DNA of 64,000 nt from Sphaerolaimus hirsutus (taxonomy: Eukaryota; Nematoda; Chromadorea; Monhysterida; Sphaerolaimidae): contig OZ038451.1 in NCBI GenBank assembly GCA_964036195.1, forward strand, positions 20,410,318 to 20,474,317. The letters are read 5' to 3'. Below the pieces are notes generated by a model that had not been told where the DNA came from, ran no database searches, and worked only from the letters and a program-made list of their open reading frames with translations. A program made the translations under genes and the position numbers. Below, piece after piece: positions 1 to 20,300 of this stretch. Positions within the stretch are counted from its first letter, which is position 1; every line of letters starts with the position of its first letter.

Positions 1-1422
1 CAAGGACATTTATTGCCTTGTTTTTCAAACAAATTCGCGTTTGCATGGCGTGTTTTTGAGCACGTCAGTAAAATATGCTTGGGTGTCAATATCGCTCCAC
101 CTGAGTCACGCCCACAATCCATGCAGCGCGTTCCATTTGGAATTTGAAAAGCGTTATACCGAGCTTGTAGCCACCATTTATGGCGACCCAAAAAGCTGCG
201 TATATGTAAAACATCATCCAAATCATGCAGTCGGTAAAATTGACTTTTCTTATCCGTCATCAACGTTCGCTGCCGATCCATACATCTCACCCTTACCAAC
301 TTTTTGAGCCAAGCCTTGTTTCTAGGAGCTCCATCGGTTTGCGTGAAATTATAGAAGCGCGCATAAATCGCGGCCCTGTCTGGGACACAAGTGCCCATCA
401 AATCCCGCTGTAAAGCATTTGAGCGGCGTGGAAGATTTTCGCACAAGTGATCATATGCTGATCTCGTCAAATTTCCATTTAGTCCACTCAAGTAGCCGCA
501 ATACGCAATTGTATGCTTTCTAATCCGATCGGAGGGCTTGACACAGCCAAGGTCAAACCAAATCGCATCAGAACACGTGGTTTTAAGTAACCCCACACTT
601 TGCTTAACTGCCTTTAGAAACGATCTATCAATCGCTTCTAACTGTGGCCGCCGTATACCTGTCACCTCCAGGCCGTACGCGATCGCGCTTTCCGCATATT
701 GTTTCCATACGAAGTCAACACACCAGAATTTCGCATCTGTCAAATTCGCAGATTTTTGACACAGGTTACTCAGCCTTTCTGCTTTACGCACGGCATTTTT
801 CCTGTGTTCTTCAAAGGTGTCACGTGCACTAGTTAGGGTCACGCCAAGATATTTTATTTTGTCGGTTTCTGAGATAAACATGTCTTTTTTGTGATGGTCG
901 AAGCCAAGCTTCAATTTTTTGGACATGTTTGCCTTTTGCCCCCATCTCAGAACAAAACTTTTCGTGGCGTTAATTGCCACATCCCAATCCCAACTCCATC
1001 TGGAAAAAATATCCAGCGTGCGTTGCAGATCAGATTCTGTATTGCTCAAAAAGCAAATATCATCGGCGAAGAACAGAGCCGGTATTTTATGTGGCCCAAA
1101 TTTGGCCCCCACATCTGCCGCCTCTAAGTGGAAGCGTAAATCTGCCAGGTAAATGATAAAACCAGTGGGTGACCAACAACATCCCTGTCTTAATCCGATG
1201 GGATATTCCATTTCCTTGCTAACATGGTCGCCAAATGTCATTACGCATTTTTGGTTTTTGTATGTATTTGCGATCGCTTGCACAAATTTCGATGGGTACC
1301 CAAAGTGACCCATTTTAGCCCACAATTTTTTCCTGTTCACGCGGTCAAATGCTTTTACCGCATCGACAAAGCATGAGATTAATCTTCCCTTTGTTTTGTC
1401 CGCGTGCCTTTTGCATGCCTGC
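1..1422 (-). pseudogene. LINE copy B, C-terminal part (RT C-terminal region and Cys/His tail), cut by window edge and LTR insertion
   Basis: Reading the minus strand from 1422 to 1 continues the reverse transcriptase of the LINE frame seen intact at 13768-12536. Bases 190-1422 match 12536-13768 with no difference that I could find. Beyond the duplicated part (189 to 1) it supplies the true C-terminus that copy A lacks. This includes a Cys/His cluster (CMDCGRDSGG, then KHILLTC), the zinc-knuckle-like tail usual at the end of LINE ORF2 proteins. The frame stays open to the left edge, so the stop codon and the 3' UTR lie outside. The N-terminal side of this copy is at 11519-12535, separated from it by the LTR element. 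A one-base insertion there breaks the frame, so the copy is non-functional as a unit. Confidence 0.88.
1418..1422. repeat. Target site duplication (CCTGC), left copy of the LTR element
   Basis: CCTGC sits directly before the left LTR and again at 11519-11523 directly after the right LTR. In the uninterrupted LINE copy A the same place (around 13764-13768) has CCTGC once. The empty site is therefore present in this window and proves both element boundaries. Confidence 0.95.
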
Positions 1423-1574
1423 TGTAAGATGTGATATAAAAAGTGTATGATAGTAAACGCGTAGTGATTGGGTATTTCTGATTGTGTGATATTTATGTGA
1501 TAATGTACGTATACAGAGCAGCTTTGGATGAAATGGAATAAATTTAAGAAAATAACTTGAGCGTTGAACTTATA
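1423..1574 (+). repeat. 5' LTR (152 bp)
   Basis: It begins TGTAAG and ends CTTATA, an imperfect inverted pair, with the conventional TG start but a TA rather than CA end. A TATA-box-like TATAAAAA is at 1435-1442 and an AATAAA polyadenylation signal at 1537-1542. It reads the same as 11367-11518 base for base. Confidence 0.96.
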
Positions 1575-1594
1575 TGGTGGACCTGGTGGGCACC
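1575..1594 (+). promoter_or_regulatory. Probable primer-binding site region
   Basis: The sequence immediately after the LTR starts TGGTGGACCTGG. TGG is the complement of the CCA end of a tRNA and the position is right for minus-strand priming. I did not match it to a specific tRNA. Confidence 0.6.
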
Positions 1595-1654
1595 ATTCTC
1601 AGTGCCTATAAATTTATTCTCCTCCATAATCCAAAGCTCTGAGACATTTTTATA

Positions 1655-4600
1655 ATGTCCGACCATCAGGGAAGAACTTCCCCTGCCCCAATTTACTATG
1701 AGGGTTTACCCTCCCAAAATACACGCTCACAAAACCCCGGCATTGGTTCTGGGATGAATCGAAATGAATTCTTCAGGCAGGCTGAAAATCTGCTATCAGG
1801 CAGACAAGCCATCGAGCATCATGACACAGGGTCTTCTGTGACTACTGCCGTCTCTCCTGAAGTGCATGAAAGTAATTTGCTTTCGTCAATGATGAATTTA
1901 GTAACCGAAAGTGAAACTGGAACTCGCTACCAATTGCCTAGCGAGAGGGACAATGACAATGATTTGGGGAACGAATACGAAACGCTATTCCACAATTTCG
2001 AGATTATCGTGGATCGGAAAATCGCACAGTCACACGACTCAATTAGAAACGAATTTGCACAAAAATCTCTCGAAATCACCAACAACATTTCGTCCTCGAT
2101 TGTACCAATTATCGAACAAAAAGTACACGAAATTGTTACTGCCAACGTGGCCCCGTTAACACAAGCTGTGTCCGAATTGACGTTTGCCGCACAAAAACAC
2201 GGCAAAGACACGGTTCTAGAACAGCCAAAAAGCCAACAATTGTCACCGGAAAATGACAACAGCGAAAATTCGAATGTCTCCGATCATGAACAGTTGACCT
2301 TAACTGATTTGGACGCAACTTTGGCCACTACTCTGCAACTATTGCTGTGTCAAATGGTCATTTTCGACAGCTCGACCGATGACAGCTTCAAGGATTGGAA
2401 AAATAGCATCATGTGCCATCTAACAATTTTTCCAGTGAAGTTTTGGCATTCTATTTGGCAGTTGATTTTCCAAACGAAACTAAAAAAAACTGCCAAAGAC
2501 ATCTACAAAGCCTTTACGCCGGAACAGAGAAAAGACTACAAATTTGTCCTGAAGGAATTGGAACTCCTTTATCATCCATTTGACCAGCGCATGAACATGA
2601 CGAATTGGCTAGCTTTGACACAAAAACATTCAGAAACCGCAGTACAATACTGTGCACGATTATTAGCCAAATTGCCAAATGAAATTATAAAAAACATGAC
2701 ACACTCCGCCTGGAAATTATACGTTGCACACCACTTGTTGAGAACAATTCAACTTCAAAAATACGACTCGAATTTCGTTTTTGGGCTTAGAAGAGATTTG
2801 AATAGTGGAAAGTTTACTGAGCCCAGAGAAGTAGCCTTGCAGCTGGACACCTATACCCGTGAAATGGCTGATTACGGTTCTGGAACTAATGACCGGTACG
2901 ACAGAAATACTAAACGACCATTCTCAAAAGGATTTCATGACAACAAAAAAATAAATTTTGAATCAAAAAATGACGACCAGTGCGATTTTCCTGGACATTC
3001 GGGTCATAAAAAATCGCAATGCTTCCGCAGACAAAGACTGCAACAACAAGCCAGATTCGCAACAAAGAAATCCCCAAACAACAGTTTTCAAAATGCTAAT
3101 GCAGGCTTCTCGGGGGTGAAAACTACGCGACCGACCCCTACACATAATAATACTATTCCAGAGAAAGCAAACGCATATCAGCCACCGTCAGAGAACATCA
3201 ACGATAAAAAACATCACTTGAACACGTTTATGGTGGAATTTTCCCAACAAGCTACCGATTTACCAACGGCACTGCAGGAAAAAATTGCCGAAACTGTGCA
3301 TGCGTTCATGACATCGTCTACCGAGGAAAGCGGAGAAATTAGCGGTAAGTTGAGTGGTATAGTGAACATTTTATACAGTGAACATGAAATGTCCGATTTG
3401 AAAACGTCCGATTTGAAAATGTCCGATAATAAAACGTCCGATTTGATTTCGCAGAAGACGGAGACCGGAATCCCGATGAAGATGGTGATTTCGAATACAG
3501 CAGGAACAATGAAGACAACGCAGACTTCGAACAGGCTTCAGGAACTGGCACAGAAAGTGATTCAAAGTGGAAAGACGAAATGTGATCACAGTAATGTGAA
3601 TGATTCTGACAAAATGGAAACTGCTCGGTCATTGGACCTGGAAATGAAAATTACTGGGATGCTAAATGATCTAGAAAAATCAACAGAAATAAAACCAGAA
3701 ACTCCAAAAAACGAATTTTTCACAGTCTGTAATCTGGGCGAAATAAGGTCATCCATCGGCAAATTAATCCAGTTTCCAATTTACTTGATGGGAATTCTAC
3801 AAAATGCAGTCATTGACCCCGGAGCTGTAAAATCAGTCATTCCAGGATCATTGTACAATGACATGAAAAACAAAATGAGAAATTTGGCTCTTAAAAAATC
3901 AAATTTTGTCCTTCGGCACGCAACTGGCATGAGCAAACCAAATACAATCTATGAAACTAAAATCCCAGTATCGGTTTTCGATTCAGAGAGCAAAAAGCTC
4001 TACTGTGCAGTTTGTACTTTCCTGGTGAATTTTGCCAGAAATGCCACAAATAAAGTATTGATTGGAAGTGATCTAATTAAACATCTAAATTTACATCAAT
4101 TTCTTCTAAAAAATTACTCTAAAGACTTTTCAAAGAATTCTCAGAACAAAACGCTATTCACCAACTCTGAAATTAGTGCAGTCAAATGGTGTCAGGGACC
4201 AACTAAACCATCAGATTGGACAGATTATGCGATAGAAAATAATCCATCGAATTCACAAAAATTCGGTATTTACCTTACTCAGTCAGCTGTACTGCATCCT
4301 CGGCAAATTTCTAGAGTTACAGCTCGTATTAATTTGGGAAAACCAAACAAAAGAAAAATAATTTCAGGAATTATGAATGTTTCCAAAATCGATGAAAATT
4401 TTCCATTTTTAACTTCACACGATGTTGCAATTTCCTCTGAAAATGTGGGACACATTGTACCAATCTTTTTGAACAACGAGGGTGAAAGAACTATTGTCCT
4501 AAAGAAAAATTACCACCTGGGTTATCTAATCGATACAAAACATATTTACAAGTATAAAAATACCTCCAATCTGGAAACATTCTACGCCACAGAATGGCCC

Positions 4601-7471
4601 ACTCCACCAAATTGGACGCCTAAATTAGAAGAATTCCCAAAACAACCATCTGACAGATTTGCACACATAAAAAAAACATTACCACAAAAGGATCAAATTC
4701 CATTGTCCGAAAATCAGCGTTCAAAATTTTGGACATTAATTGAAAAATTTCATGATTGTTTCAGTTGTGGGGAATTCGATGTGGGATTGACTACTCTAGT
4801 TAAACACTACATCAAAACAGATCCAGAACACAAACCAGTTAAACAGCCACCCAGATTCGAATCAGCAGAAAAGAGACAGTATATAACGGATACAATAGAA
4901 AATATGTTGAATCAACAAATTATTGAACCCTGCGATTCGCCATGGACCAGCCCCATTTCTGTGGCCAAAAAAGGCGACGGGGGATGGAGACTAGTAGTAG
5001 ATTTTCGAATTCTAAATAGTCTGACCTTAACCCAGTCATGGCCATTACCTCAAATTGGACATATATTGACAGAATTAGGGGGTAGAAAAGTATTCAGTTC
5101 CCTGGACTTAAAACATGGGTTTTACAATATTCCCTTAGGAGATGAACAGAGTAAAGACGTTACCGCTTTTGCTTGTTCAATGGGACAATTCCGTTTTCTG
5201 AGAGCTCCAATGGGAGCTTCAGGAAGCCCTGCCTCGTTTCAGAAATTAATGACTATAATGTTGAGAGGACTCTGTGAAGATCAATCAAGAAAATGGGTAA
5301 GAGCCTATTTAGACGATATTTTAGTGTCCAGTGACACTATTGATCAACATCTTGAACATTTAGAAAAATTGTTCAAGAGACTAAGATGGGCTGGGTTGAA
5401 ACTCGGGCCTAAAAAATGCCTTTTCTTAGTAAAAAAACTACGCTATTTGGGACATGACATTGGAGCTACTGGAATCGCACCTGCCTACGACCGAGTAGAA
5501 GCTGTACTGTTACAGGATAAACCCAATACTAAACAAGACCTTAGAAGATTTCTAGGAAAAACAGTTACTTTTGCACATTTTATACCTAGATACTCAGAAA
5601 TCGCCGCTCCATTAACAGATGCCATGGCTGGCAGATATCTAAAAAATGGGGCCGACGAAATAATTTGGACCCCCGAAATGAATAGTGCCTGGAGTGAACT
5701 TAAACGCATTTTGACATCTGCACCAGTTTTGTCCCATCCTAATTACCATTCAGGTAAACCATTTGTGCTACAAACAGACGCTTCAAAAGCTGGTTTGTCA
5801 GCTGTTTTGCTACAAGAATCTGAAGTTGATCACAAACTACACCCTATAGCATTCGTCAGCAAAAGAATTCATGCACAGTATAAAAACTGGTCAGCTGCAC
5901 AACTCGAGGCCTTAGCCATTGCTTTTGCACTTAGGAGATTGTCACCTCTAGTTGAGGGACAAGGGATCATTTTACAAACTGATAACAAAGGGGTAGTAGA
6001 TGCGTTTAAATCGCCACATGCATCCATCTTGGAAAGATGGGCCATGTACTTACAGGATAAAATTTTGAGGATAGAACACAAACCAGCTAATCTGAATGTA
6101 GTAGCGGATCAACTATCTAGAAATCCTATCGATAACCAAATTGACGACATTGAGTTGAAACAGTCCGCTAAATTAATCGATGTACTTCCACACCTGAGCC
6201 CAGAATACGAACACACTGAAAATAAAACGTTGATCGACACTTTCACAAATGAAGACGCTGAAAACACACAGGGGACTCTAAAATTAGAAAAAACTATAAA
6301 TTGGGCTTCTGAACAATCAATTGACGAGGAAATAGTTCAGCTGAAAAACGCTATTGAATCCCAAAATGGCTCAATCAGTCAAAAAAGTTTGAAAGTGATT
6401 GATAACATTTTAATGTGTCAAAACCCCGAAGGTAAATACGTCCCATATGTGCCAAAACATCTCAGACACTACTATTTATATGAATTCCATAAAGGAATCT
6501 TCGGTTCACACGGAAATGCAGAAAAAACTGCAAAAATCCTCACCAATTATGGAACATGGGAAACTATAGCTGATGACGTCTCAGAATTTTGTAAAAATTG
6601 TGAAAATTGTAAATTGTCGAAATCAATGCCTACATTCGCCCCTGAAATACGCGCCCCCTCCAGCGCAAGTTTACCGTTTCACACAATTCATGTAGACTTA
6701 TGTACCATGCCAAAACTGAGAGTTTTCCGATATTTTATGATAATTGTGGATTCACTTACGAGGTATATAATTGCAGAACCAATTGCCCAGAAAACAGCTA
6801 AGAATGTATCTAATATACTCGAAAAAGTATTTTATACCTACGGATCACCAGCTGTTGTAATTTCCGACAACGGAACTGAATTTACTGGATTTGAGTTTCA
6901 AGCACTCGCCAAAAAATTCAATTTCCAGCACTCAACTATACATCCTTACCACCCACAAGCCAACGGACTCGCAGAACGAGCAATACGTTCCATTTTAACA
7001 CAACTCAGACTTTTAGAAGACGAGAGATCCGATTGGGTAAAAAATTTACCTATCGCCGTTCTAAAACAAAATCTCACTTATCATAAATATACCGGAAAAC
7101 CCCCATTTTTGCTAATGTTCAATAGATTACCAAAACACGCTTATCTAGGCTTCATTTCAACCAACAACAACTCGAACTGGTCAAAAAATTGGAGAACTGC
7201 CAAACTGAACTCCAATATGAATCGGAAAAAATTCGTGGATTGGATAAATCAGAAAAACGAAAAAAAACGCCACAAATTTATGTTTCAACCAGGGACTCTA
7301 GTTTTAAGAAAAATCGAAACACCCGGAAAACTCGACAAACGAAATGACGGACCATTTCAGGTTTTGTCATACAAAAATGGATTTGCAGTTATTCAACCAC
7401 TCAGTGATAAACAAAATACTGGGGCCACAGAACCACTGGAAGTCCATGTTTCGAAATTAATTCCAAATTGA
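1655..7471 (+). CDS. gag-pol: Gag-Pol polyprotein of the LTR retrotransposon
   Basis: Single 1938-codon frame, no internal stop or frameshift. Gag occupies roughly residues 1-520. Near residue 442 it has a Cys/His motif of the form C-x4-H-x2-H-x4-C instead of the canonical CCHC knuckle. A run of short repeats built on (M/T)SDLK lies near residues 580-600. The protease active site is DPGAVKSVIPG near residue 721, with Pro where DTG or DSG is usual. The reverse transcriptase starts near 1070 and has YLDD near 1218. RNase H has LQTDAS near 1373. The integrase has the HHCC zinc domain (His near 1612-1622, CKNCENC near 1646) and the D, D, E triad (HVDLC, DNGTEF, GLAERA) near 1679, 1738 and 1773. 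A GPF-type module follows near the C-terminus and I see no chromodomain. It looks fully capable of coding. Confidence 0.95.
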   Translation: MSDHQGRTSPAPIYYEGLPSQNTRSQNPGIGSGMNRNEFFRQAENLLSGRQAIEHHDTGSSVTTAVSPEVHESNLLSSMMNLVTESETGTRYQLPSERDNDNDLGNEYETLFHNFEIIVDRKIAQSHDSIRNEFAQKSLEITNNISSSIVPIIEQKVHEIVTANVAPLTQAVSELTFAAQKHGKDTVLEQPKSQQLSPENDNSENSNVSDHEQLTLTDLDATLATTLQLLLCQMVIFDSSTDDSFKDWKNSIMCHLTIFPVKFWHSIWQLIFQTKLKKTAKDIYKAFTPEQRKDYKFVLKELELLYHPFDQRMNMTNWLALTQKHSETAVQYCARLLAKLPNEIIKNMTHSAWKLYVAHHLLRTIQLQKYDSNFVFGLRRDLNSGKFTEPREVALQLDTYTREMADYGSGTNDRYDRNTKRPFSKGFHDNKKINFESKNDDQCDFPGHSGHKKSQCFRRQRLQQQARFATKKSPNNSFQNANAGFSGVKTTRPTPTHNNTIPEKANAYQPPSENINDKKHHLNTFMVEFSQQATDLPTALQEKIAETVHAFMTSSTEESGEISGKLSGIVNILYSEHEMSDLKTSDLKMSDNKTSDLISQKTETGIPMKMVISNTAGTMKTTQTSNRLQELAQKVIQSGKTKCDHSNVNDSDKMETARSLDLEMKITGMLNDLEKSTEIKPETPKNEFFTVCNLGEIRSSIGKLIQFPIYLMGILQNAVIDPGAVKSVIPGSLYNDMKNKMRNLALKKSNFVLRHATGMSKPNTIYETKIPVSVFDSESKKLYCAVCTFLVNFARNATNKVLIGSDLIKHLNLHQFLLKNYSKDFSKNSQNKTLFTNSEISAVKWCQGPTKPSDWTDYAIENNPSNSQKFGIYLTQSAVLHPRQISRVTARINLGKPNKRKIISGIMNVSKIDENFPFLTSHDVAISSENVGHIVPIFLNNEGERTIVLKKNYHLGYLIDTKHIYKYKNTSNLETFYATEWPTPPNWTPKLEEFPKQPSDRFAHIKKTLPQKDQIPLSENQRSKFWTLIEKFHDCFSCGEFDVGLTTLVKHYIKTDPEHKPVKQPPRFESAEKRQYITDTIENMLNQQIIEPCDSPWTSPISVAKKGDGGWRLVVDFRILNSLTLTQSWPLPQIGHILTELGGRKVFSSLDLKHGFYNIPLGDEQSKDVTAFACSMGQFRFLRAPMGASGSPASFQKLMTIMLRGLCEDQSRKWVRAYLDDILVSSDTIDQHLEHLEKLFKRLRWAGLKLGPKKCLFLVKKLRYLGHDIGATGIAPAYDRVEAVLLQDKPNTKQDLRRFLGKTVTFAHFIPRYSEIAAPLTDAMAGRYLKNGADEIIWTPEMNSAWSELKRILTSAPVLSHPNYHSGKPFVLQTDASKAGLSAVLLQESEVDHKLHPIAFVSKRIHAQYKNWSAAQLEALAIAFALRRLSPLVEGQGIILQTDNKGVVDAFKSPHASILERWAMYLQDKILRIEHKPANLNVVADQLSRNPIDNQIDDIELKQSAKLIDVLPHLSPEYEHTENKTLIDTFTNEDAENTQGTLKLEKTINWASEQSIDEEIVQLKNAIESQNGSISQKSLKVIDNILMCQNPEGKYVPYVPKHLRHYYLYEFHKGIFGSHGNAEKTAKILTNYGTWETIADDVSEFCKNCENCKLSKSMPTFAPEIRAPSSASLPFHTIHVDLCTMPKLRVFRYFMIIVDSLTRYIIAEPIAQKTAKNVSNILEKVFYTYGSPAVVISDNGTEFTGFEFQALAKKFNFQHSTIHPYHPQANGLAERAIRSILTQLRLLEDERSDWVKNLPIAVLKQNLTYHKYTGKPPFLLMFNRLPKHAYLGFISTNNNSNWSKNWRTAKLNSNMNRKKFVDWINQKNEKKRHKFMFQPGTLVLRKIETPGKLDKRNDGPFQVLSYKNGFAVIQPLSDKQNTGATEPLEVHVSKLIPN

Positions 7472-7627
7472 TTTTATTGAAGAATTACAAATCCAGAAAA
7501 TCGAAAGAAAACAAAAAAAAAACAGAACACAACATTCTCTAATGACTTTAATTTTTTTTAAAAAGCCTCTGTACTAGTGGTAGGGCACCTAATTTTAAAT
7601 CGACCGATGCAATTTAAACACACTAAC
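7472..7627. other. Convergent intergenic spacer between pol and the antisense gene
   Basis: The A/T-rich spacer lies between the pol stop and the stop codon of the minus-strand gene. The two frames run toward each other. It contains long A and T runs but no frame I would call. Confidence 0.6.
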
Positions 7628-9297
7628 TCATTTTTTATCACTGCTACTCGCAGCTTCAGCATTCTCGTCACTTTTCCCTTTGTCCACGCGAGGATAATCT
7701 GTATTAAAATGTATATTAAATTTAAATTTCATCATTATTAAATACACGCATTTACACACATTTTTGAAAATTTGTCATTATCAAATCCACATTTTTGGAC
7801 TTAAAAATACCTTTTTGGACAAAGGACATTTTTTTGAATACAGATGCACAAAATAACATAAACGACACAAAATCCACATTTTTGGACTTAAAAATACCTT
7901 TTCGGACTTAAACACAATTCTGATACAAATGATATGAAATCAATGAAAGTAATCCAAAAAATAAAAGTACGAAGTTATACCTTTTCCGTCAAATTTCTGA
8001 TCCGGAACCAAACCTTTCGTTACGCGAGCCAAACGAGCAACTTCGTCTAATTCGCGGCCCAGAAGAGCACCCGTAAAGCGCACCTAAAAGTTAATGTACA
8101 AAATAAAAGTGTCCCGAAAGCTTAAAAATAAGCGTAAATAAGTTGTAAACAAAATATATTTTGTTCTCTTTCAACACCAATTTAAATAGAAAAATAGAGC
8201 TAACTTTTTCCTCCACAGTAGTCGAATTTTCATAAATTCGACCACCCGGCAACCACAATCTCTGTCCATAAATTTTCTCGGTAAAATGAATTGAAATTTT
8301 CGGATTATAGTCCCAGTCTTTTTCATTGTTGAGACTTTCAATTTCAGCATAAGCTAAAATGCTCAACGGCGGCTTGTTGTGCCTTTAAATAACAATCTAC
8401 TAATTACACAGTCAATCAAAATTAAAAATAATAAAAACCAACTTTCGCCCAAAAAGTTCCATCCCGAAAATTTTCATTTTTCCGATTTGAACACTCTGGT
8501 GTCCAAAACCTTCCAAAATTGCGCAAACTCCGAGTTCGGTATATTTATTAATTTCGGTGCAGTACATCGCTACCTAAAAATACCAACTTAATTTAGATTT
8601 TGGACTAGCAAATGAAATTAAATAAAAATAAAAGTGTCTAAATTCACCGTCAAACCATCTTTTTTCCCTAAATTATCCACCAAAGCGCCACATTCTCCAA
8701 AGCGGAAATTCTTTGCAAAATCGAACAACAACTTAGACGGGCGGGAACCACAACCGTCACACGTGCACACTGTGCAAATCAATTTGCCAGGAATGAACTT
8801 TTGATAGCCATTTTTGCGGCAGAGATCAGACAAGGCTCTGTCATTCACAGAATACAGCACCTAAAAATAAAAAACACAACATAAAACGTTCAACTCACAC
8901 ACACATTCAACTATAATAATAAATTAAAGACCTTGATCTGATGGAAATTGTAGTCCCGAAAGGTTCCATTTTCATCGATGATGACGTCATAGTCATCTTC
9001 GCGTTTGACAAATTCAATTTCCCACACATTAATATTGTTCGATAGTTGATTTTCCAACTCGAAAAACCCGCGGCGCACCATCATACCGGTCAAATCGACC
9101 TCGCGGACACCGATAGCACGCTGAAATTAATTGAAAATACTTAGACACATAGAACAATAAAATTGTCACTCTCTAATCTAGTAATGTCAACAAAATACCT
9201 CGGGAATAACGACATTTTTCAGGGCTCGATAGACAGTCGCAGCCGTCTTCGAAGGCGCACGATAGTCAGAAAAAGGTGGAATATATTGCGCTGCCAT
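7628..9297 (-). CDS. Seven-exon antisense accessory gene of the LTR element (327 codons, family unknown)
   Basis: Exons on the minus strand: 9199-9297, 8932-9120, 8648-8860, 8443-8573, 8205-8382, 7981-8083, 7628-7698. Every intron is GT-AG (60, 71, 74, 78, 121 and 282 bp) and every junction keeps phase, giving an uninterrupted product from ATG at 9297 to TGA at 7628-7630. Exon 3 encodes a tight Cys cluster (ICTVCTCDGCGS) with further Cys residues, possibly metal-binding. Exon 5 contains a Gly-rich WLPGGRIYE segment. The tail is acidic, Ser/Ala-rich and ends in KK. I see no signal peptide or membrane segment, and no enzyme motif I recognise. It could be a captured host gene or an element-specific regulator. 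The GTCTTT, GTTGGT and GTTAGC donors are weak, so individual boundaries may shift slightly. Function unknown. Confidence 0.78.
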
Positions 9298-9564
9298 TTT
9301 CAACACTTTTGAGAAAAAAGACGCCAGGAATTTTCTTTTTTTTTTAATTCAAAACTCCGCCTTCATAAATAATAAATAAAAAGTATTTTGAAATTTTGAA
9401 ATATTTCGAAATCAGAAGACAGTTTGGAATAATTTACATCAACAATACAAAAAAAATAAGCTACGAAACACACATAGTGGTATTTTAACGCAAAAAACTG
9501 TATTTATCACTCGACGTTAGCTAAAAAACACACTAAAGGGCAGTATCGACTACGCAATACGAAA
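9298..9564. promoter_or_regulatory. Shared upstream region of the divergent accessory genes
   Basis: The 267 bp between the two start codons is A/T-rich with long T and A tracts and no frame. Both flanking genes start at its edges and run outward, so it must hold 5' UTRs and possibly a bidirectional promoter inside the retrotransposon. This is inferred from gene order; no core promoter element is clear. Confidence 0.5.
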
Positions 9565-11323
9565 ATGGCAAGCTCCACGTCAGACGGGAGCAAGGCAAAT
9601 GCCGTTATGGAAAAATTGTGTCCCCACCATTTTCCATACATCAGCCGTTGTTTTGCGTGCCGATCATTCCTTCACAAAGTCAGCAAAGAATTGTTTAGCC
9701 AAGAAAATGAGAAAACAAAAGCTCTGGCAGAAACAGCTCAAATGCAAAAAGAGATAAATGGAATGCAAGCTATTGTCCTGCAAAAGGATGCCGAAATCGA
9801 CAAACTTCACAAAGAAATCGAATGCTTGAAAGCTGTGCATTTTTTGCCCGAATCTCAGGTTCGAACAAGGGAACAACACATTACTTTACTAAGCTAAGTC
9901 GTTGGAACTATAAAGCTCCAACTTTCTAAAAAACTTTTTTGAAGAAAAGATGCCGTGCCGCTGAACAGTCCCGAGTCGAACCTGTGACGACTAGAACCAA
10001 TTACACGGGTAGCATAATTCACTCACCTAGTAGAGTTCATTCTATACCTATTTTACCTATACTTCCGTCCTACGTTGAAACATCTTTTTCACGGGTTTCG
10101 CAACTCAGTCGACTTCAAACATCAGTAGGCTTTGAACAAATCAAGTTAAAAAACATTGAAAATCAAATTAAATCAATTAAATTAATTAAAAAAAAAAAAA
10201 AAAAATTCAATGAATATTCTTTTTGTCAGACAGTGTGGGCTGTACATGCACTGGCGGGACGTCTGAACAGAAGATTAAACGTGACTACGGCCCTGCTCAA
10301 AACGGAACCCGACTGTGCAGTCGATATCGATGGATTCGACGCAAAGGCACTGACTAAAAGAATGAGGACCACTATCAAAAACGAGCACTACAACCCAACA
10401 ACGAACCCCGAAAACTCGGACATCAAAACGTCCGATTTCAAGGTAATAAAATTTAGGGGTTCGAATTTTGGAACTCAAATGAATGTCCATTACAACATAG
10501 TAATAAGTTATAAATATCCGGACACTGAAATGTCTGATTTGAAAGTAGTAAAATTAACAAATTCGGATTTAAAACAAAATCACAAATGCTGAAAAATAAC
10601 AAACTAAAATTAATTTTTATCCTAAATTAACTAATTATTTAAAACAATCAGGAACTTGCATTATAAATTATAAATATTCAGATTCCCAAGAAAACCTACA
10701 AACCATGCGGAACTGAACAGTTGTTCGGTGAGAGAGCCACTTCTGTGACGGCGTCACTGGGAATCGGGGCCTCTTACAACCGCGGCAGAGGGAGGTATAA
10801 CAACAGGCCCGGCCATCGCTTCAAACGCGGCACCAATAAACGACATCTCAACTTCAACCAAGATCAAATGAAAAGATTTTTGGACGACTACATGGAGTTC
10901 AAGTCCAACAACACTGATGATGACAATCAAAGCATTGTCACATATACCACTGAGGACCAGGAAAAGTCGAATATTGCATTGCCAATGTCAAATAAAGGTT
11001 AAATGGTCAACTCTAAAAAGTGTTAAATAGTCAACTTTTAAAATGTTTTAAATGTTAAAATGTCCTCAAATACCAACAAATTAAAAATTGATTGCTTTCA
11101 AAAACATTTAAAGTTAAAAGCCAAACATGTTGAACAAATTTAAATTTAATAAAATAATTCTAATTCAGACAAAAAGACAACTACTACACTGGATGCGAAA
11201 GGCCAAAAACCACAAACATCCAGATCCAGGACGGTAACAGAATCAACTTCGATGGAAGATGGACAGGATGGACAGGAACCGGAACCGGAACCGGAGCAGC
11301 AGATGGAAGAAACGGCGCAGTGA
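9565..11323 (+). CDS. Four-exon sense accessory gene of the LTR element (325 codons; Cys/His, coiled-coil, Arg/Gly-rich)
   Basis: Exons 9565-9858, 10230-10442, 10682-10997 and 11169-11323, stop TGA at 11321-11323. Introns of 371, 239 and 171 bp are GT-AG with good pyrimidine tracts (TTTTTGTCAG, TATTCAG, CTAATTCAG), and phases agree. Exon 1 encodes a Cys/His-rich start (CPHHFPYISRCFACR) followed by a heptad-like charged helix (about residues 45-90), probably a coiled coil. Exon 3 encodes a basic Arg/Gly stretch (YNRGRGRYNNRPGHRFKRG), typical of RNA-binding tails. Exon 4 ends in an acidic run of EP repeats. No signal peptide or membrane anchor is present, so it is not an envelope protein. The layout suggests a nucleic-acid-binding accessory protein. 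Family not recognised; function inferred only from composition. Confidence 0.75.
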
Positions 11324-11354
11324 AGTAGTGGTTTGACAGTTAGTTTGTTCAGGT

Positions 11355-11366
11355 AAAAGGGGAGGA
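11355..11366 (+). promoter_or_regulatory. Polypurine tract
   Basis: AAAAGGGGAGGA directly abuts the right LTR, the required position for plus-strand priming in LTR retrotransposons. Confidence 0.9.
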
Positions 11367-11518
11367 TGTAAGATGTGATATAAAAAGTGTATGATAGTAA
11401 ACGCGTAGTGATTGGGTATTTCTGATTGTGTGATATTTATGTGATAATGTACGTATACAGAGCAGCTTTGGATGAAATGGAATAAATTTAAGAAAATAAC
11501 TTGAGCGTTGAACTTATA
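11367..11518 (+). repeat. 3' LTR (152 bp)
   Basis: Identical by eye to 1423-1574, with AATAAA at 11481-11486. It is followed at once by the CCTGC target duplication. Confidence 0.96.
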
Positions 11519-11523
11519 CCTGC
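11519..11523. repeat. Target site duplication (CCTGC), right copy
   Basis: Pairs with 1418-1422; the LINE sequence resumes directly after it. Confidence 0.95.
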
Positions 11524-12535
11524 ATTATCACGACGTTATCCAATGTTCGTCGTTTTCCACGAAATCCGCCCTGAATGTCACCGAATCCGTTATTTTTCTC
11601 GAAGGCGTCAAGCGTTCGCCTGTTCAACACCGCCATGTATAATTTCATTACATTACATCCAATTCCCAGAGTGCGGTAGTTTCTGATATCCATCGTACTC
11701 CCCTTTTTGTGCAAAAGTACCATTTTGCACAGCTGTTTATCGGGGTCAATTCTGCCTCCGTTGAACCAGTCATTAAACAGCGTAACGAGGCAAAGGATTC
11801 GTGACTGGTCCAAAATCTTTAAAACCTCATGTGGCATTTCGGTTGTGCCAGCAGATTTTCCACCTTTAAATTTTTTTTATTTCCGCGCGAATTTCTACTT
11901 CCGTAATCGGTTTTGTTAAATCAGATTTCGATTCCGGGCTAATAATGTCCCCACCAAACCATTTTCGCGCATCCATATTGTTGGATCCTGGGTTTGGAGA
12001 CATCACAATGTCCCATGCCCGTTCAAGTTCCCATTGTATTTCCGGTTCGGTGCAAACTAGCCCCGTCTCATTTTCCAGTGCAAAGCGCCTCGATGAAACA
12101 TCCTTCATTCCATTCATGTGATGGTAAAGGCGCTTGACTGCCGTGCTGCAGTTATATTGCAGCTGAGTTATGAAATGTAACTCCTTTTCATCCTTTCTTG
12201 CGCATCTGTATTTGCGCAAATGAAGCCGTGCTAGACGCAGCCGTAAGATGGCCTCTTTGTCCGTCCGGTTTTTTTTCAAATGCCGCCGTGATTTATTAAC
12301 CTTCCGGGACAGCTTTAACTCGTAATCGTCGTATTTTTCCCGCTTTTGCTGCCCGCCCTTGGGTCTCATTGGCGCAACCCTATCAGCTAAATCATGAATC
12401 GAATCAATGAAACTCGAATGTGAGTTCCCTTTGTTCAGCGGGTTATCGTTCATGAGTTCCGACAGCTGTTCCAAATGTATTTTCTTCCGTGAAATTTTCG
12501 CCGAGTGGGCTGATACATCACGAGCCTCACTATCC
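11519..12535 (-). pseudogene. LINE copy B, N-terminal side of the duplicated segment, frameshifted
   Basis: Matches 13764-14779 of copy A. I noted three differences: an eighth T in a T-run at about 11871-11878 (copy A has seven), and single substitutions near 12032 (Trp for Arg) and 12518 (Arg for Cys). The extra T breaks the frame in a Lys-rich stretch, so the long LINE frame ends at 11866 just after the second EIKK motif. At 12535/12536 the segment is fused in frame to the end of copy A, with only CC shared at the joint. The RT continues after the LTR element at 1422 to 1. Confidence 0.9.
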
Positions 12536-14779
12536 AAAAAGCTGCGTATATGTAAAACATCATCCAAATCATGCAGTCGGTAAAATTGACTTTTCTTATC
12601 CGTCATCAACGTTCGCTGCCGATCCATACATCTCACCCTTACCAACTTTTTGAGCCAAGCCTTGTTTCTAGGAGCTCCATCGGTTTGCGTGAAATTATAG
12701 AAGCGCGCATAAATCGCGGCCCTGTCTGGGACACAAGTGCCCATCAAATCCCGCTGTAAAGCATTTGAGCGGCGTGGAAGATTTTCGCACAAGTGATCAT
12801 ATGCTGATCTCGTCAAATTTCCATTTAGTCCACTCAAGTAGCCGCAATACGCAATTGTATGCTTTCTAATCCGATCGGAGGGCTTGACACAGCCAAGGTC
12901 AAACCAAATCGCATCAGAACACGTGGTTTTAAGTAACCCCACACTTTGCTTAACTGCCTTTAGAAACGATCTATCAATCGCTTCTAACTGTGGCCGCCGT
13001 ATACCTGTCACCTCCAGGCCGTACGCGATCGCGCTTTCCGCATATTGTTTCCATACGAAGTCAACACACCAGAATTTCGCATCTGTCAAATTCGCAGATT
13101 TTTGACACAGGTTACTCAGCCTTTCTGCTTTACGCACGGCATTTTTCCTGTGTTCTTCAAAGGTGTCACGTGCACTAGTTAGGGTCACGCCAAGATATTT
13201 TATTTTGTCGGTTTCTGAGATAAACATGTCTTTTTTGTGATGGTCGAAGCCAAGCTTCAATTTTTTGGACATGTTTGCCTTTTGCCCCCATCTCAGAACA
13301 AAACTTTTCGTGGCGTTAATTGCCACATCCCAATCCCAACTCCATCTGGAAAAAATATCCAGCGTGCGTTGCAGATCAGATTCTGTATTGCTCAAAAAGC
13401 AAATATCATCGGCGAAGAACAGAGCCGGTATTTTATGTGGCCCAAATTTGGCCCCCACATCTGCCGCCTCTAAGTGGAAGCGTAAATCTGCCAGGTAAAT
13501 GATAAAACCAGTGGGTGACCAACAACATCCCTGTCTTAATCCGATGGGATATTCCATTTCCTTGCTAACATGGTCGCCAAATGTCATTACGCATTTTTGG
13601 TTTTTGTATGTATTTGCGATCGCTTGCACAAATTTCGATGGGTACCCAAAGTGACCCATTTTAGCCCACAATTTTTTCCTGTTCACGCGGTCAAATGCTT
13701 TTACCGCATCGACAAAGCATGAGATTAATCTTCCCTTTGTTTTGTCCGCGTGCCTTTTGCATGCCTGCATTATCACGACGTTATCCAATGTTCGTCGTTT
13801 TCCACGAAATCCGCCCTGAATGTCACCGAATCCGTTATTTTTCTCGAAGGCGTCAAGCGTTCGCCTGTTCAACACCGCCATGTATAATTTCATTACATTA
13901 CATCCAATTCCCAGAGTGCGGTAGTTTCTGATATCCATCGTACTCCCCTTTTTGTGCAAAAGTACCATTTTGCACAGCTGTTTATCGGGGTCAATTCTGC
14001 CTCCGTTGAACCAGTCATTAAACAGCGTAACGAGGCAAAGGATTCGTGACTGGTCCAAAATCTTTAAAACCTCATGTGGCATTTCGGTTGTGCCAGCAGA
14101 TTTTCCACCTTTAAATTTTTTTATTTCCGCGCGAATTTCTACTTCCGTAATCGGTTTTGTTAAATCAGATTTCGATTCCGGGCTAATAATGTCCCCACCA
14201 AACCATTTTCGCGCATCCATATTGTTGGATCCTGGGTTTGGAGACATCACAATGTCCCATGCCCGTTCAAGTTCCCGTTGTATTTCCGGTTCGGTGCAAA
14301 CTAGCCCCGTCTCATTTTCCAGTGCAAAGCGCCTCGATGAAACATCCTTCATTCCATTCATGTGATGGTAAAGGCGCTTGACTGCCGTGCTGCAGTTATA
14401 TTGCAGCTGAGTTATGAAATGTAACTCCTTTTCATCCTTTCTTGCGCATCTGTATTTGCGCAAATGAAGCCGTGCTAGACGCAGCCGTAAGATGGCCTCT
14501 TTGTCCGTCCGGTTTTTTTTCAAATGCCGCCGTGATTTATTAACCTTCCGGGACAGCTTTAACTCGTAATCGTCGTATTTTTCCCGCTTTTGCTGCCCGC
14601 CCTTGGGTCTCATTGGCGCAACCCTATCAGCTAAATCATGAATCGAATCAATGAAACTCGAATGTGAGTTCCCTTTGTTCAGCGGGTTATCGTTCATGAG
14701 TTCCGACAGCTGTTCCAAATGTATTTTCTTCCGTGAAATTTTCGCCGAGTGGGCTGATACATCACAAGCCTCACTATCC
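12536..14779 (-). repeat. Tandemly duplicated LINE segment (2244 bp unit)
   Basis: The unit equals 11524-12535 plus 190-1422 of copy B, 2245 bp with one extra T. It is a head-to-tail direct repeat internal to the LINE. It does not start at a LINE end and shows only a 2-bp overlap at the joint, which suggests a segmental tandem duplication rather than two independent insertions. Confidence 0.88.
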
Positions 14780-17700
14780 GGCCAATGCAAGGTTAATTCC
14801 AATGCGTGATGGTCACTCGACATCGGACTTGATGTCCCATCGTCGTCTATGCGACCGCTCATCAGTCGCGTATGCCAGCTGTCCAAGAGCGCCAGATCAA
14901 TAATCGATCTACAATTATGGCGCGTGAATGTCCACAAACCAGACATTTTTTTGTTAAGTAATTCTAAGCCGGATTCTTTATACCAATCGCGCACTTCCCT
15001 ACCGTTTGCGTTCAATGTCGCAGTGTTGCCTGGTATTCCCCATTTACCGGTCCCTATGTGGCCGTTAAAGTCTCCGACCAATAGTGTTTCGATTTTTTTC
15101 GATCTGTTTTTTGCAACCACATCCGTCAAAGTGTTCAGAATTGACTTATTATTTTCCATTATTGATTGCGAGCGGCTTGCCTTGCCATTGTTCTCCAGGT
15201 AAACTAGCGTCACACCTATTCTACCCGTTTCGCTTCGTAAATGAACACTCATTATGTGATTTTCGTGTCTATTGGGTGAGACATATTCACCCCGCCACTT
15301 CACATGTGTGTAAATCAACAGACCGCCTGTTTTTTTTGCGTCTGACTTGACACGGATAAATCGATCATAGTTCTTCAAATGCGGTGCATCCACGCCGGAA
15401 AGACATTGCGCCTCACATAAGCAGATGACGTCATATTGCGACATGCTAGCGACTTCTCGTAAAGCGTTGAAATTCCCGCGTAGTGATCTGACATTCTGAT
15501 ACAAGATTGTTAGATCATTTCCCTTTTTCACGGCCTCAACCTTTCTCCGACTACACTGTGCCAAAATTGCCCCTGTCGCTAGGCTAGCTGCTACCGGCAC
15601 GTCTGATATTCTTACGTTATTTGAGATTTGCGGTTTGATTGCAAGCGTCGGAGCACAGTGCAATACTAGCACGCAGATAAGTACTTTAAACGCAGTAAAT
15701 TCAATTCTCGACTTCCAATTCACGCTAAAAATCTTCATGTAATTGCCGAAAAACGAACACCAAACAAACACATCCAATAAAAATTTCACAATGATTGCAC
15801 AAAAATTTTTTACCAGTTCGTAGGTGATCAACTCCTTAATGTTCCGGAAAAAACCCCAAAAATACGTATTTGGGAGGGGACAAAATGCACGATAAAACAT
15901 TTCCAAAAAACTGTAAAGCGATAAATTCGACGGCAGAGATCTCTGTAAACGTAAGAGATTAAAAAAAATCAAAAAATCACATTTGGCAGCAATACACGCT
16001 GTCAAATGGTCCCCTAAAAAAATCTGCCCCAATCCTCCTCTCTCGCACCGGTGCACCATAAAACGGGTGGCATCTGCGCGCGTGCAGTTGAATGCGTATT
16101 GGTCAAATTCAACAACCAACAGCGTTACTTGGAAATATGCCAAGTTATAGCCACCAACCTCAGCGGCTGTTGCGGCGCGGCATACACAGCCGGCGCAGGC
16201 AGTCCCTAATATCGTTCGCCCACACCCCCTTGACGCTGGGGACGACCAAACCGGCCTCCAATCTCTGCTCCAAATCGACCCGCGCCTCGGCCTCGGCCGC
16301 GCCAACCCCGCCCACGATTCTGATAAGGGGGATTCATTAATGTCAAACGGTTTGCCATACATACTATAGCGGTTCTTAAGTGGAACCAACGGTTCATTCA
16401 AGCTCATTTCCTTCACCAATTCGCGCGTTACAATCGCGTCAAATAAGTGGGAGGCGTGAACGCCATCCCTTTGACAGCCAAACAGATAAGCGATCTGTTC
16501 GTTGTTCAGTTCGCAAAATCGCATCGAGTTCTTCGTCAGCCACTCGATCGGCCGCAGTGCCGTCACAAAGGGCACGTCCCGGAAGTAGCTCCAAACCAGG
16601 TACTCCAGGTTTCGCACCCATTGCAAGGTGTCGTCGATGCTGCGCTCGTCCATGCGCCGAGACAGGGGCGCGTGCAGCAGCGGGCTCACAATGCACACAT
16701 AAATTTGTGCATCGCGCATCTGCCAGTTGCTCATCCAGGCCCGCAGGCGCGTCAGCATGTGCAGCATCGGGTGGCACAGCGTGGCCGTGGCGTGTGCCTC
16801 GTCGAAGTGGTTCATGCTCTCCAGCGTGGCTAGGCTATCGAGCACGCCCTTCACCAGGACTGCGTCGTAGCGCCTCATAGGGGCGTAGCAGTTGATGACC
16901 GTGGGGATTATCGACCCAATGCGCTTGCCGTGGAATGCGCCACGGAACAGCTTCATTTCGCCCGCCCAATTTCGATTTTGGGTGAGGCGCTGATATTCAA
17001 TTGGCAGGCGCGCCGTTGTGCTATCTCCAATGGTCAGCACAAATTTGGATGTGCGTGGCAGGTCAATGTAGTGCCTGCGCCAGGGCGGCTGATCGTAGAA
17101 AACATTCAGCGGCCGAGTGAACTCTCGGTGCGGGGCATCCGGCGCCCAAGCAGTCCCCACGCGCACATGCCGCAGCATGTCGGCCACCGAAATCTCGTTG
17201 TTAGAGATCTGAGGCACGCTTACTAGCGTGACATCCATGCGGTGGCGCTCGCCGCGCATCGATCTTTGCAGGCAGGCTCGGACTTCCGTTTTTGTTTCCT
17301 CGCTCAGATCCTCTGGCTGGATGTAAATCGGTCCCGGTTGTTCAGCTGCTGGTTCGGCAGCGGCAGCCTCGGCCACGACCCGGGCCTCGGCCGCACCACC
17401 ATCCTCCGGCGCGAATATGTCCAACGGCGGCATATTTTCGTCCGCGTCTTCCGGAGCCCGCACATCGCCGGCGGGTTGTACGTTGCCCTGAATGTCCTGG
17501 GCCTGATGCTCAATATGTTCGGGCTCTGGCGAGCTTGCGCGCTCGCCATCCTCGTGATCGGCCGGTACTTCGGCGGATACATCCAAGTCATCGTCTTGGA
17601 CGTTTTCAACAATTTGGGGCCCCACGTTCTCGTCACGAACCTGAAAATTTTGTTGCGACAGTGGTTGAAATGTGACGCTACGCGAACTGCCCCTTACGTT

Positions 17701-19602
17701 GGCTCGGCTGCCCGCCCGTAGCGCCGCCCCGCCCGGTGGCTGTAAATTCAAAGTTTCAAGTACATAAATATCAGCAATACGCGCATTACTCTGCGTTTGG
17801 ATGGTGCTAACATTGTTTTCGGCCAAAAGTCCAATGCGACTGGATCTCCCCGACTCAGGCTGAGCCGATGCCTGTGTTTCGCGGGCGCGTACAAGCTGCC
17901 CAAAGTGCGCAACATAGCGTACTTTGTGGGATGGTTCGGTGTAATCATCCGCCCATATTTTCGTGTCCATGTAGATCTTGAAATCGCGGTCATTTAGCCG
18001 CCGCGGGCCCACTTTCTCCTCAAAAGTGTTTAGCAGCTCCTCCCTGATGTCCGTCATCGCTTCGCCCAGAAGCCCCATAAATGGCTTGAGCCAGAACTCT
18101 CGCTGTTCATTTGCGATATCCACCTGTGTGTGGATCATATGCAAATATGCGCCTAAAATATCGCAATTTTTGCCAAATTTTAAACTTCTTTGCAGTACCT
18201 CGGCCTCGTATTTTTCCGCCCCGATCATTAAGGCCGATCGGAAATCCCATGGCGCCTGGGCATTAAATGGATGCCTTCCGCATGAAACGAGGCGACGCCA
18301 TTTTTTTTCCCCGTCCGATTCCACGTATGTTCGGACCAGGATCGGCGCCAGCGTTTTGCTGCAGTCGATCGCCCCCCGTATCTGTGTTATATCACAGATT
18401 GCTCGTATATACGTTACGAGTCTGTTAGCGGGTTGCAAACCAACCACATCCAGTAGTGCCTTGTACGCTGTTGATTCTTTTGCACCTTCCACGCTCGAGA
18501 TGTCGTCCATGGGGAACCAATGATCCCCTTTCGCAATGTTGGCCCACAGCCGTTGCGTGTCGCGGTACCAGTCGTACCAGCGCTCATCAAAGCCGGCGCC
18601 ACTATGGCACCGGTACGCCGCTGACACGCGCGCCAATTCGGTGTAATCATCATCAGATGCACCGCAGTGCTCCATTTGCAACTGTAAGTAGGTCGTGTCA
18701 TTACTACACAAAAGTGGCGCTATAAACGCGTTTAAGCATCTAACCCGCATCAAAGCCAGCATCATGCATGGATATGGATCGTCACAGTGATCCAGCATGA
18801 CAGGATACGGCCACGTCAGACTTAGTTGTTCTGAAAATTCATAGGCCGCGAATTTTATCGGTGGCGTGCGGGCCGGCGGTGTTTCGCAGGGCGATGAAGT
18901 GTCGCTTTCGAGATCGCTAACCCGATCTCTCAAGTCGGAATAGCGCTTTTCGGACTTGTGAGCACGCCTTTCCAGAGCGCACATGCGGCGTTCATTGTCC
19001 ATCAATACGGACAACACGAAATCCATGTCAGCGAGGCATGTGTAGGCATCTTCGCCGTCCTTTTCAATGCCGCGCCTTATATCGCGTCGGGCAGACCTCA
19101 AAGTGTCTTCCTGCGTGCGCTCTTCTGTGTCGCGCATGCGCTTTGGAGTTTTTGCTGTGTCTTCTTCGGCCTTGCGCTTTTTCGCGGCCAGCGATGCTGA
19201 GCACGCCCCATTGCTTTCCTGCAAGGCAGTTGGCAGCGTTCCAGTTCGGAATTTTATCGAACGCACCCTTACTTCGGGCAAGGCATGTCCGTATATTTGG
19301 TCATGGACATCGACAAAATCACAAGCGATTATGTTCATCACCGTGAACATAACAAGTGCAGTAACGAGCAAGAACCCATAAAGTGCGAAAACTCGCTGTT
19401 TCGCTTTTAAACCAACCGCGGGTTCTTTGTCATTCTTTTTCGGCACATTTTCAGGCATCGGCTCTAAAAGCGAGTCGTCCTCTTCCATTATGGCCAAATT
19501 TCCGTCCTCGCTCGCGTCCTCACCGCGATTTTCCTCCGGGCGTCCGCGTTCCTCGTCGCCAGACATTTTTAAACCGAAAACTGCGATTTCGTCTTGTTTC
19601 AA
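12536..19602 (-). CDS. LINE (non-LTR retrotransposon) polyprotein, copy A: membrane segment, SGNH-like domain, APE endonuclease, reverse transcriptase
   Basis: The frame is open from 19602 through 12536 and, by the duplication, on to 11866 (2578 codons). An acidic N-terminus is followed by a hydrophobic segment at about residues 71-95. A GDSTT motif near 854 and a DGVH motif near 1050 resemble blocks I and V of SGNH esterases, a domain known from ORF1 of CR1-like LINEs. The endonuclease (about 1357-1600) shows YQNVRSLRG, GDFNGHIG and SSDHHAL, the APE-type signature. The reverse transcriptase (about 1800-2090) has FFADD near 2059. Residues about 1100-1350 are hydrophobic and unlike a known domain, and may be an inter-ORF region that happens to be open. 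The natural start could be the Met at residue 13. This copy lacks the C-terminal Cys/His tail because the duplication joint replaces it. Confidence 0.9.
16206..16340 (-). other. Overlapping Arg/Gly-rich frame inside the LINE
   Basis: A second minus-strand frame encodes an RG-rich tail (NRGRGWRGRGRGAGRF and more) ending at 16206. The long LINE frame over the same bases reads as an irregular Arg/Trp/Ser mixture. RG-rich tails are common in ORF1-type RNA-binding proteins. A frameshift near the C/T-rich stretch at about 16326-16336 would join the SGNH-like part to this tail. This is an inference. Confidence 0.4.
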
Positions 19603-20300
19603 CTTTTTTCTTTTTTGCGATATCAGTGACTAATACTAATTGGCACTGTGCCAGTCTTGGCACACTGCCAAATAAGTAGTTATGCCAATTTTGGCAGATC
19701 GCCAATATGCCCTCTCTCTCTACTTGAGAGCTAACAGCAGAGCTGCAAGCGTGTTTGAGGAATGGTACATACAATGTAACACGCTCTCGTAAAACTATTA
19801 GCGAGGCACTATTCCAGGCTTTAAATCAAGCCCTGTTATGTCTCAATCCGACACAGTTTGGCACTCTGCCAAAAATGATCGATGAATCACCTATCGACAC
19901 TTCTTCGCAGTTCGCGTCTTTACACAGTGCAGCGTCGAATACGTTTCGGTAGTTAACCGCGACGTGAAATTCCTTCCAGGTCCAATACGTTAGGACACCA
20001 GAGTCAGTGCTCAATACCCCACTGGTTTGGCACTTGTCCAAAAACAACCTCACTTGGTTGTTTTACCTACCAGTCAAACAAAAAAGGTCGAAAACAAACA
20101 AAAACGCCAACCTGGTCAAGCTAACAGAAAGCAACACCAAAACTCCCACTTCCTTCCGCAGCAAACCTCTAATTTGATCCTTTTACCGCTCCTTTAAGAA
20201 AAAGAGCTCGCTCACTTTTTTCTTTTTCTTTCTTTAGTAATTCAATCAAATACTACACTTTGTAAAGAACGTCCCCCCAATCTTGGCAAAGTGCCAAAAA
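19603..20300 (-). promoter_or_regulatory. LINE upstream region with a cluster of NFI-type palindromes
   Basis: Six sites of the form TTGGC-N5-GCCAA occur. Four are perfect: 19657-19671, 19691-19705, 19858-19872 and 20283-20297. Two have one mismatch: 19640-19654 and 20027-20041. TTGGC-N5-GCCAA is the established consensus of Nuclear Factor I dimers. Six in under 700 bp, just upstream of the LINE start codon, suggests an internal promoter or enhancer. The 5' boundary of the LINE is not resolved. A further perfect site is isolated at 47720-47734. Confidence 0.6.

Follow-up and report, generated by a model that had tools for sequence, protein, structure and literature searches.

A divergent pair of intron-rich accessory genes in a Ty3/Gypsy retrotransposon lineage of the nematode Sphaerolaimus hirsutus

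Considering that retrotransposition of a spliced RNA erases introns located on its sense strand, the question arises how a long terminal repeat (LTR) retrotransposon can keep spliced genes downstream of pol. This question is posed by a complete Ty3/Gypsy element at positions 1423-11518 of a 64,000-nucleotide stretch of Sphaerolaimus hirsutus DNA (assembly GCA_964036195.1, contig OZ038451.1, positions 20,410,318 to 20,474,317 of the forward strand; hereafter “the window”), in which two genes are predicted between the pol stop codon and the polypurine tract (PPT), and yet the introns of the sense-strand gene persist across diverged element lineages. The comparison of genomic copies shows that this two-gene module is an integral and selected part of the Ty3/Gypsy lineage. 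With moderate confidence we favour the explanation that this old accessory module comprises a sense protein with a role like that of CERV or Rev and an antisense regulator.

The antisense gene model comprises seven exons (327 amino acids) and the sense gene model four (325 amino acids). Both genes are arranged head to head with their ATG codons 267 bp apart, and every intron has GT-AG borders; these exon models agree with a preliminary description of this DNA, which had proposed a divergent spliced pair of 7 and 4 exons (327 and 325 codons) separated by a 267-bp gap. The components of the module, with the basis for each assignment, are as follows:

7473..7478, minus strand: antisense-strand AATAAA at the end of pol, likely poly(A) signal for the antisense gene (recurs in relatives)
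7628..7698, minus strand: antisense exon 7 with stop codon (splice model)
7981..8083, minus strand: antisense exon 6 (splice model)
8205..8382, minus strand: antisense exon 5 (splice model and relatives)
8443..8573, minus strand: antisense exon 4 (splice model and relatives)
8648..8860, minus strand: antisense exon 3 (CxCxxC invariant in 11 aligned rows, likely zinc ligands)
8932..9120, minus strand: antisense exon 2 (splice model and relatives)
9199..9297, minus strand: antisense exon 1 with ATG (splice model)
9298..9564, no strand: 267-bp divergent spacer, presumed two-way promoter (position only)
9565..9858, plus strand: sense exon 1, with a C-x2-H-x6-C-x2-C finger and a coiled coil (splice model, alignment, structure model)
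10230..10442, plus strand: sense exon 2 (splice model and relatives)
10682..10997, plus strand: sense exon 3, with a basic segment rich in arginine and glycine (RG-rich; splice model, composition)
11169..11323, plus strand: sense exon 4, with an acidic tail and stop codon (splice model, composition)

An antisense-strand AATAAA is located no more than 60 bp from the pol stop codon in 7 of 12 elements, as compared to 1.1 expected from the local frequency, some of these elements being close relatives.

The 348-Mb assembly containing the window was scanned with both predicted proteins. The antisense query yielded 98 exon matches, hand-grouped into 51 loci, and the sense query 98 matches, hand-grouped into 33 loci. 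At 22 of the 51 antisense loci a sense match is present at a distance of no more than 6 kb, and 21 of these pairs are head to head (one of them, on contig C42, with an additional sense match that is oriented differently), the exception being an internally inverted copy on contig C3. This copy (locus L010, C3:11635091-11644846) is approximately 97-99% identical to the window element and carries both genes between LTRs matching over 153 bp with no mismatch; an internal segment of 3.2 kb is inverted, short pieces were lost at the breakpoints, and its flanks contain no matching target-site duplication (TSD). At the other 29 antisense loci the window sense query gave no match within 6 kb. Profile examination of nine of these revealed, in seven (L031, L032, L033, L034, L046, L047 and L048, of which L031-L033 are near-identical copies), a weak head-to-head sense-type match (E 0.0056-0.1) with a CxxH...CxxC pattern; these seven score 52-68, i.e. 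at control level, with the single window sense query. No sense gene was found by profile at L012 and L028, where sense aligner scores are 36-47.

The distribution of the module was then set against reverse transcriptase (RT) identity, for which the best 150 of 1,772 candidates were scored and the 82 with an identity of at least 68% were compared. When RT is at least 77% identical, an antisense match is present in 20 of 21 elements and a sense match in 18 of 21 (the window and its C3 copy being counted), and in those 20 the antisense match follows the RT match downstream at a distance of 1.6-5.2 kb, 19 being antisense-oriented and one belonging to the inverted copy. Two diverged relatives also enclose the module between terminal repeats, which match over 158 bp with 1 mismatch in one relative and over 149 bp with 2 mismatches in the other; their TSDs are AGGGA and ACATG, and their 18-base primer-binding site (PBS) is that of the window element. 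A recent private capture by a single element was ruled out, since the module is common to these large majorities at that RT identity. At an RT identity of 74%, L057 (C13:2833501-2836500) harbours a diverged sense gene, three pieces of which give profile E values of 0.00003-0.0007 and which reaches an aligner score of 102 versus a sense control maximum of 70; neither gene was found in the 3 kb examined of L058, an element of the next clade (RT 53%).

Conservation was assessed by means of a custom spliced aligner, with which four shuffled or reversed control queries on 20 loci scored at most 75. In diverged relatives the scores of the antisense query range from 196 to 687, save L045 (127), L049 (110), L046 (100) and L050 (97), and those of the sense query from 233 to 558 in loci showing a sense gene. 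Among distinct loci scoring at least 200, the antisense intron at position 97 (phase 0) is retained in 19 of 20, the exception being the decayed L043, and the sense intron at position 99-100 (phase 0) in 16 of 16, while an additional sense intron at position 28 (phase 2) is confined to one clade. The ratio of nonsynonymous to synonymous substitution rates (dN/dS, NG86 method), listed for the 22 pairs of lowest dS for each gene, many pairs being saturated at synonymous sites, is below 1 in the listed diverged pairs. For old sense pairs with finite dS it ranges from 0.046 to 0.42 (the lowest values being 0.046-0.065, with 0.046 for L014-L040 and 0.057 for L014-L026 and L008-L040), and for old antisense pairs from 0.17 to 0.56 (lowest for L028 versus L031, L032 and L033, 0.17-0.19); among young pairs, the antisense value is 0.60 for L039-L043, where both copies contain stops. 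Between the window and the C3 copy, antisense exons differ at 14 of 983 sites and introns at 23 of 686, sense exons 2-4 differ at 3 of 684 sites and introns at 5 of 410, and the sense dN/dS of 0.59 is inflated because of false exons at the inversion. Chance or a gene-prediction artefact was ruled out by the scores above controls, the dN/dS below 1 and the recurring exon borders and phases. The preliminary description had proposed to look for the module in other copies and for purifying selection upon it: the module is indeed present in such copies, and neutral decay is not borne out.

Trees of integrase, antisense and sense proteins each recover the groups L013, L036 and L037, and L014, L038 and L026, as well as the pair L053 and L029, and L047 and L048 are grouped in both trees containing them. 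By integrase and by antisense protein the window groups with L053/L029, whereas the sense tree places it (support 0.80) with L045, the position of which shifts between trees. Mantel correlations are 0.90 for integrase-antisense (12 loci), 0.76 for integrase-sense (10 loci) and 0.89 for antisense-sense (10 loci), each with p 0.0001, these values being inflated by related copies. As judged from these comparisons, the three trees are largely congruent.

These data bear on two further explanations. The preliminary description had considered captured host genes, and a host gene pair may have been captured by one element and then carried along, for which an antisense-type gene at L012 (C7:6985413-6989016) might speak, having mostly longer introns and no sense gene or pol found in the 30 kb examined (L051, L012, L052). 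This explanation appears improbable, considering that the module is common to diverged lineages, is old and co-inherited with pol, that no host progenitor in intact form came to light, and that the C7 gene, frameshifted in exon 3, may itself be a derived or domesticated copy. L012 shares intron positions with the module, its introns being 72-787 bp as aligned, and could represent either a progenitor or a domesticated copy. Alternatively, antisense transcription may itself be functional through RNA regulation, with the protein as a by-product; regulatory transcripts of this kind have precedents among retroelements (PMC7264820), but conservation of codons, phases and invariant C/H residues renders this slightly more improbable still.

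Whether the predicted sense introns are removed from RNA is addressed by one genomic copy, L056 (C1:12269501-12275500), which is bounded by LTRs of 151 and 148 bp with TSD GTGGG, and contains a PBS and a partial gag, without pol and the antisense gene. Its nearest relatives (L008 and L014) have four sense introns, of which L056 keeps that at position 28 (phase 2) and has lost the other three. The joints at positions 99 and 167 agree base by base with the predicted borders, while at 243 the joint preserves the reading frame and is consistent. Loss of introns at predicted joints implies partial splicing of a sense RNA, the start of which was presumably in the 5’ LTR, before its reverse transcription; this single copy shows at the genomic level that introns of the sense gene are spliced in sense-strand RNA. 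Considering that sense introns can be spliced out and the product re-inserted, the retention of the position-99 (phase 0) intron in 16 distinct sense loci implies apparent selection for unspliced genomic RNA. The joint between gag and the sense gene in L056 looks like an internal deletion; a splice origin for it was unsupported, no GT/AG being visible at its borders, although the border is fuzzy by approximately 15 bases.

Alignment of the predicted antisense proteins (11 rows) revealed invariant residues N64, R73, H93, G121, C128, C130, C133, N147, G151, G154 and G161, and invariants of the sense protein (9 rows) include C19, H22, C29, C32, W101 and H104. In the sense protein a basic, RG-rich part (isoelectric point, pI, 10.3 over residues 150-235) is combined with an acidic tail, and a single-sequence structure model of its exon 1 predicts one long helix at residues 30-91 (mean predicted local distance difference test, pLDDT, 80.4, with block means up to 98; predicted template modelling score, pTM, 0.49). 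Single and profile searches of Pfam, PDB, a library of 5.8 billion proteins and IMG/VR retrieved no convincing relative for either protein. The antisense protein gave six Pfam families (E 0.014-0.16), each matching one or two of the 11 rows only, and nine PDB sequences with the single query (E 0.21-2) and none with the profile; with the sense protein, 33 weak Pfam families (E down to 0.00089) and 12 PDB sequences (E down to 0.073) were matched, mostly coiled coils. The protein library yielded nothing at E of 1 or below for either protein, though spliced eukaryotic genes may be under-represented in it because its entries are proteins predicted from public genomes and metagenomes, and no relative of either was confirmed in IMG/VR. 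The location between pol and the 3’ LTR would suit an Env-like gene, against which it is noted that no envelope or fusion domain is among the Pfam matches listed for either family (25 of the 33 weak families for the sense protein); an Env-like gene is considered highly improbable.

Individual features of the module have counterparts elsewhere. In Caenorhabditis elegans Cer1, the accessible text of PMC10309623 describes CERV as encoded by a spliced five-exon mRNA, with a potential leucine zipper and a possible C4 finger, and as required for export of genomic RNA. The window likewise has a multi-exon sense-strand accessory gene with a zinc finger and a possible zipper counterpart, likened by architecture and not by sequence, and L056 revealed that introns of this gene, the protein of which is predicted, are spliced from sense-strand RNA. 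Unlike in the window, CERV exons 1-3 use the gag frame, and that same text describes no antisense partner. HBZ of human T-cell leukaemia virus (HTLV) and APH resemble the antisense gene in being spliced antisense protein-coding genes (predicted in our case) of an LTR element, and are expressed from the 3’ LTR (accessible parts of reports among PMC5408684, PMC11963269 and PMC10186651), whereas the window gene, with its seven predicted exons, has its start in the region that separates pol from the divergent sense gene and gives no Pfam match to bZIP. The plant Gypsy elements Retand and Grande have a conserved antisense gene between pol and the 3’ LTR, which in Grande (GENE23) has its own promoter; the Retand antisense open reading frame (ORF), however, has a TRP28 domain (PF04195), not matched by the antisense protein in Pfam, and the accessible portions of the relevant sources describe no divergent intron-rich pair for either. 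Bdelloid rotifer LTR elements have acquired a variety of ORFs downstream of pol and express them by way of spliced mRNAs, but these ORF3s are of DEDDy, GDSL, transmembrane, coiled-coil or env types, and neither DEDDy exonuclease nor GDSL esterase is among the Pfam matches listed here (for the sense protein, 25 of 33 weak families). Spliceosomal introns are also kept by Penelope-like and DIRS retroelements, which belong to classes other than Ty3/Gypsy. Further comparison literature on retroelements is found in PMC5718144 (accessible part). As LTR elements with one antisense ORF, with a spliced accessory gene on the sense strand or, among retroviruses, with a spliced antisense gene are already on record, novelty is limited to the divergent, intron-rich pair: no LTR element with such a pair was found in literature judged from titles and abstract openings, subscription papers being mostly out of reach. 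Within this literature, the statement in the preliminary description that no such family is known holds for the pair, with the qualification that its separate ingredients are known.

Two extra genes with retained introns suggest a regulatory system like that of complex retroviruses. In the favoured explanation the sense protein, if made, would oligomerise on element RNA and, by virtue of its finger, coiled coil and RG-rich part, would export intron-containing genomic RNA from the nucleus or shield it from splicing, so that introns would survive reverse transcription; on the basis of architecture, it probably acts on unspliced genomic RNA in the manner of CERV or Rev. The antisense protein would derive from a separate transcript, presumably starting in the spacer and ending at the pol stop codon, as the poly(A) signal supports, and may constitute a second regulator, one that binds zinc and acts on the element or on host silencing; its introns would be invisible to splicing of genomic RNA because the gene lies antisense. 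Of the two readings offered in the preliminary description, an own regulatory module is the better one, although its function is inferred. More tentatively, and possible rather than probable, a Gypsy lineage may have independently evolved a two-sided module like that of complex retroviruses, with a Rev-like sense export factor and an antisense regulator from two previously unseen families. The apparent selection for unspliced genomic RNA makes the origin of Rev/CERV-type control amenable to direct tests in this retrotransposon family, the two proteins of which are of unfamiliar ancestry. A role after export is conceivable as well, the sense protein being a packaging factor or nucleic-acid chaperone supplementing Gag and the antisense protein countering host silencing; the unusual CHHC Gag knuckle and the RG-rich basic segment (pI 10.3) of the sense protein are compatible with this role, which we nevertheless consider unlikely, as it leaves the retention of sense introns in reverse-transcribed RNA unexplained.

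Several points weigh against the favoured explanation. The proposed role in export of genomic RNA is inferred from architecture and from the intron argument. Old antisense pairs other than those of lowest ratio have a dN/dS of 0.35-0.56, young pairs range from 0 to 0.6, and some copies contain stops. At an RT identity of 68-76%, the window queries gave an antisense match in 14 of 61 elements and a sense match in 2 of 61, although these counts, like those for the 21 closer elements, are lower bounds because the searches score best candidates only. The profile examination of antisense loci without sense match covered nine of the 29. Finally, no antisense gene was found in the approximately 0.9 kb examined upstream of the L057 sense gene, and the antisense gene may therefore not be universal.

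The element hosting the module has the RT-RNase H-integrase order, LTRs, PBS, PPT and short TSD of a Ty3/Gypsy LTR retrotransposon, and is composed of the following features:

1418..1422, no strand: 5’ TSD CCTGC (matched by the copy at 11519..11523)
1423-11518, plus strand: complete Ty3/Gypsy element (LTRs, TSD, gag-pol frame)
1423..1574, plus strand: 5’ LTR, 152 bp (identical to 11367-11518, 152/152)
1575..1592, plus strand: PBS TGGTGGACCTGGTGGGCA (18 bases common to two diverged relatives, 3’ of their 5’ LTR)
1655..7471, plus strand: gag-pol, single frame of 1938 codons (RT, RNase H and integrase are Pfam matches)
11355..11366, plus strand: PPT (adjoins the 3’ LTR)
11367..11518, plus strand: 3’ LTR, 152 bp (identical to the 5’ LTR)
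11519..11523, no strand: 3’ TSD CCTGC (matches the 5’ copy)

The identical LTRs, target duplication, empty site and intact pol of the preliminary description were all retrieved, the LTRs agreeing at 152/152 positions, the duplication being CCTGC and gag-pol being open throughout 1655-7471. The empty site is the second tandem copy, at 12534-14779, of the interrupted long interspersed nuclear element (LINE) segment. This segment was recently duplicated in tandem (188-1422 / 12534-13768 and 11516-12535 / 13761-14779), one copy having been the insertion target, and a LINE frame at 11866-19629 gives endonuclease and RT matches.

Within the gag-pol frame, familiar motifs point to a gag with a CHHC knuckle and to a protease-like DPGA. 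The knuckle (window 2981-3022) reads C-x4-H-x2-H-x4-C; CHHC is also present in L053, L054, L055, L047 and the C3 copy, and L046 has a canonical CCHC knuckle. L049 and L050 (C1:1.757-1.852 Mb) are part of a 98.7% duplicated stretch with a sense gene and an antisense remnant, and L049 also contains a DUF1759 gag-like ORF and another ORF whose match to a viral fusion glycoprotein is weak and falls below the cut-off. The window also contains short repeats, related to one another and centred on TCCGATTTGAAAA / TTTTTGGACTTAAAAAT, at 3380-3445 (linker between gag and pol), 7783-7907 (last intron of the antisense gene) and 10418-10556 (exon 2 and intron 2 of the sense gene); they were read by eye, one 38-bp pair among them excepted.

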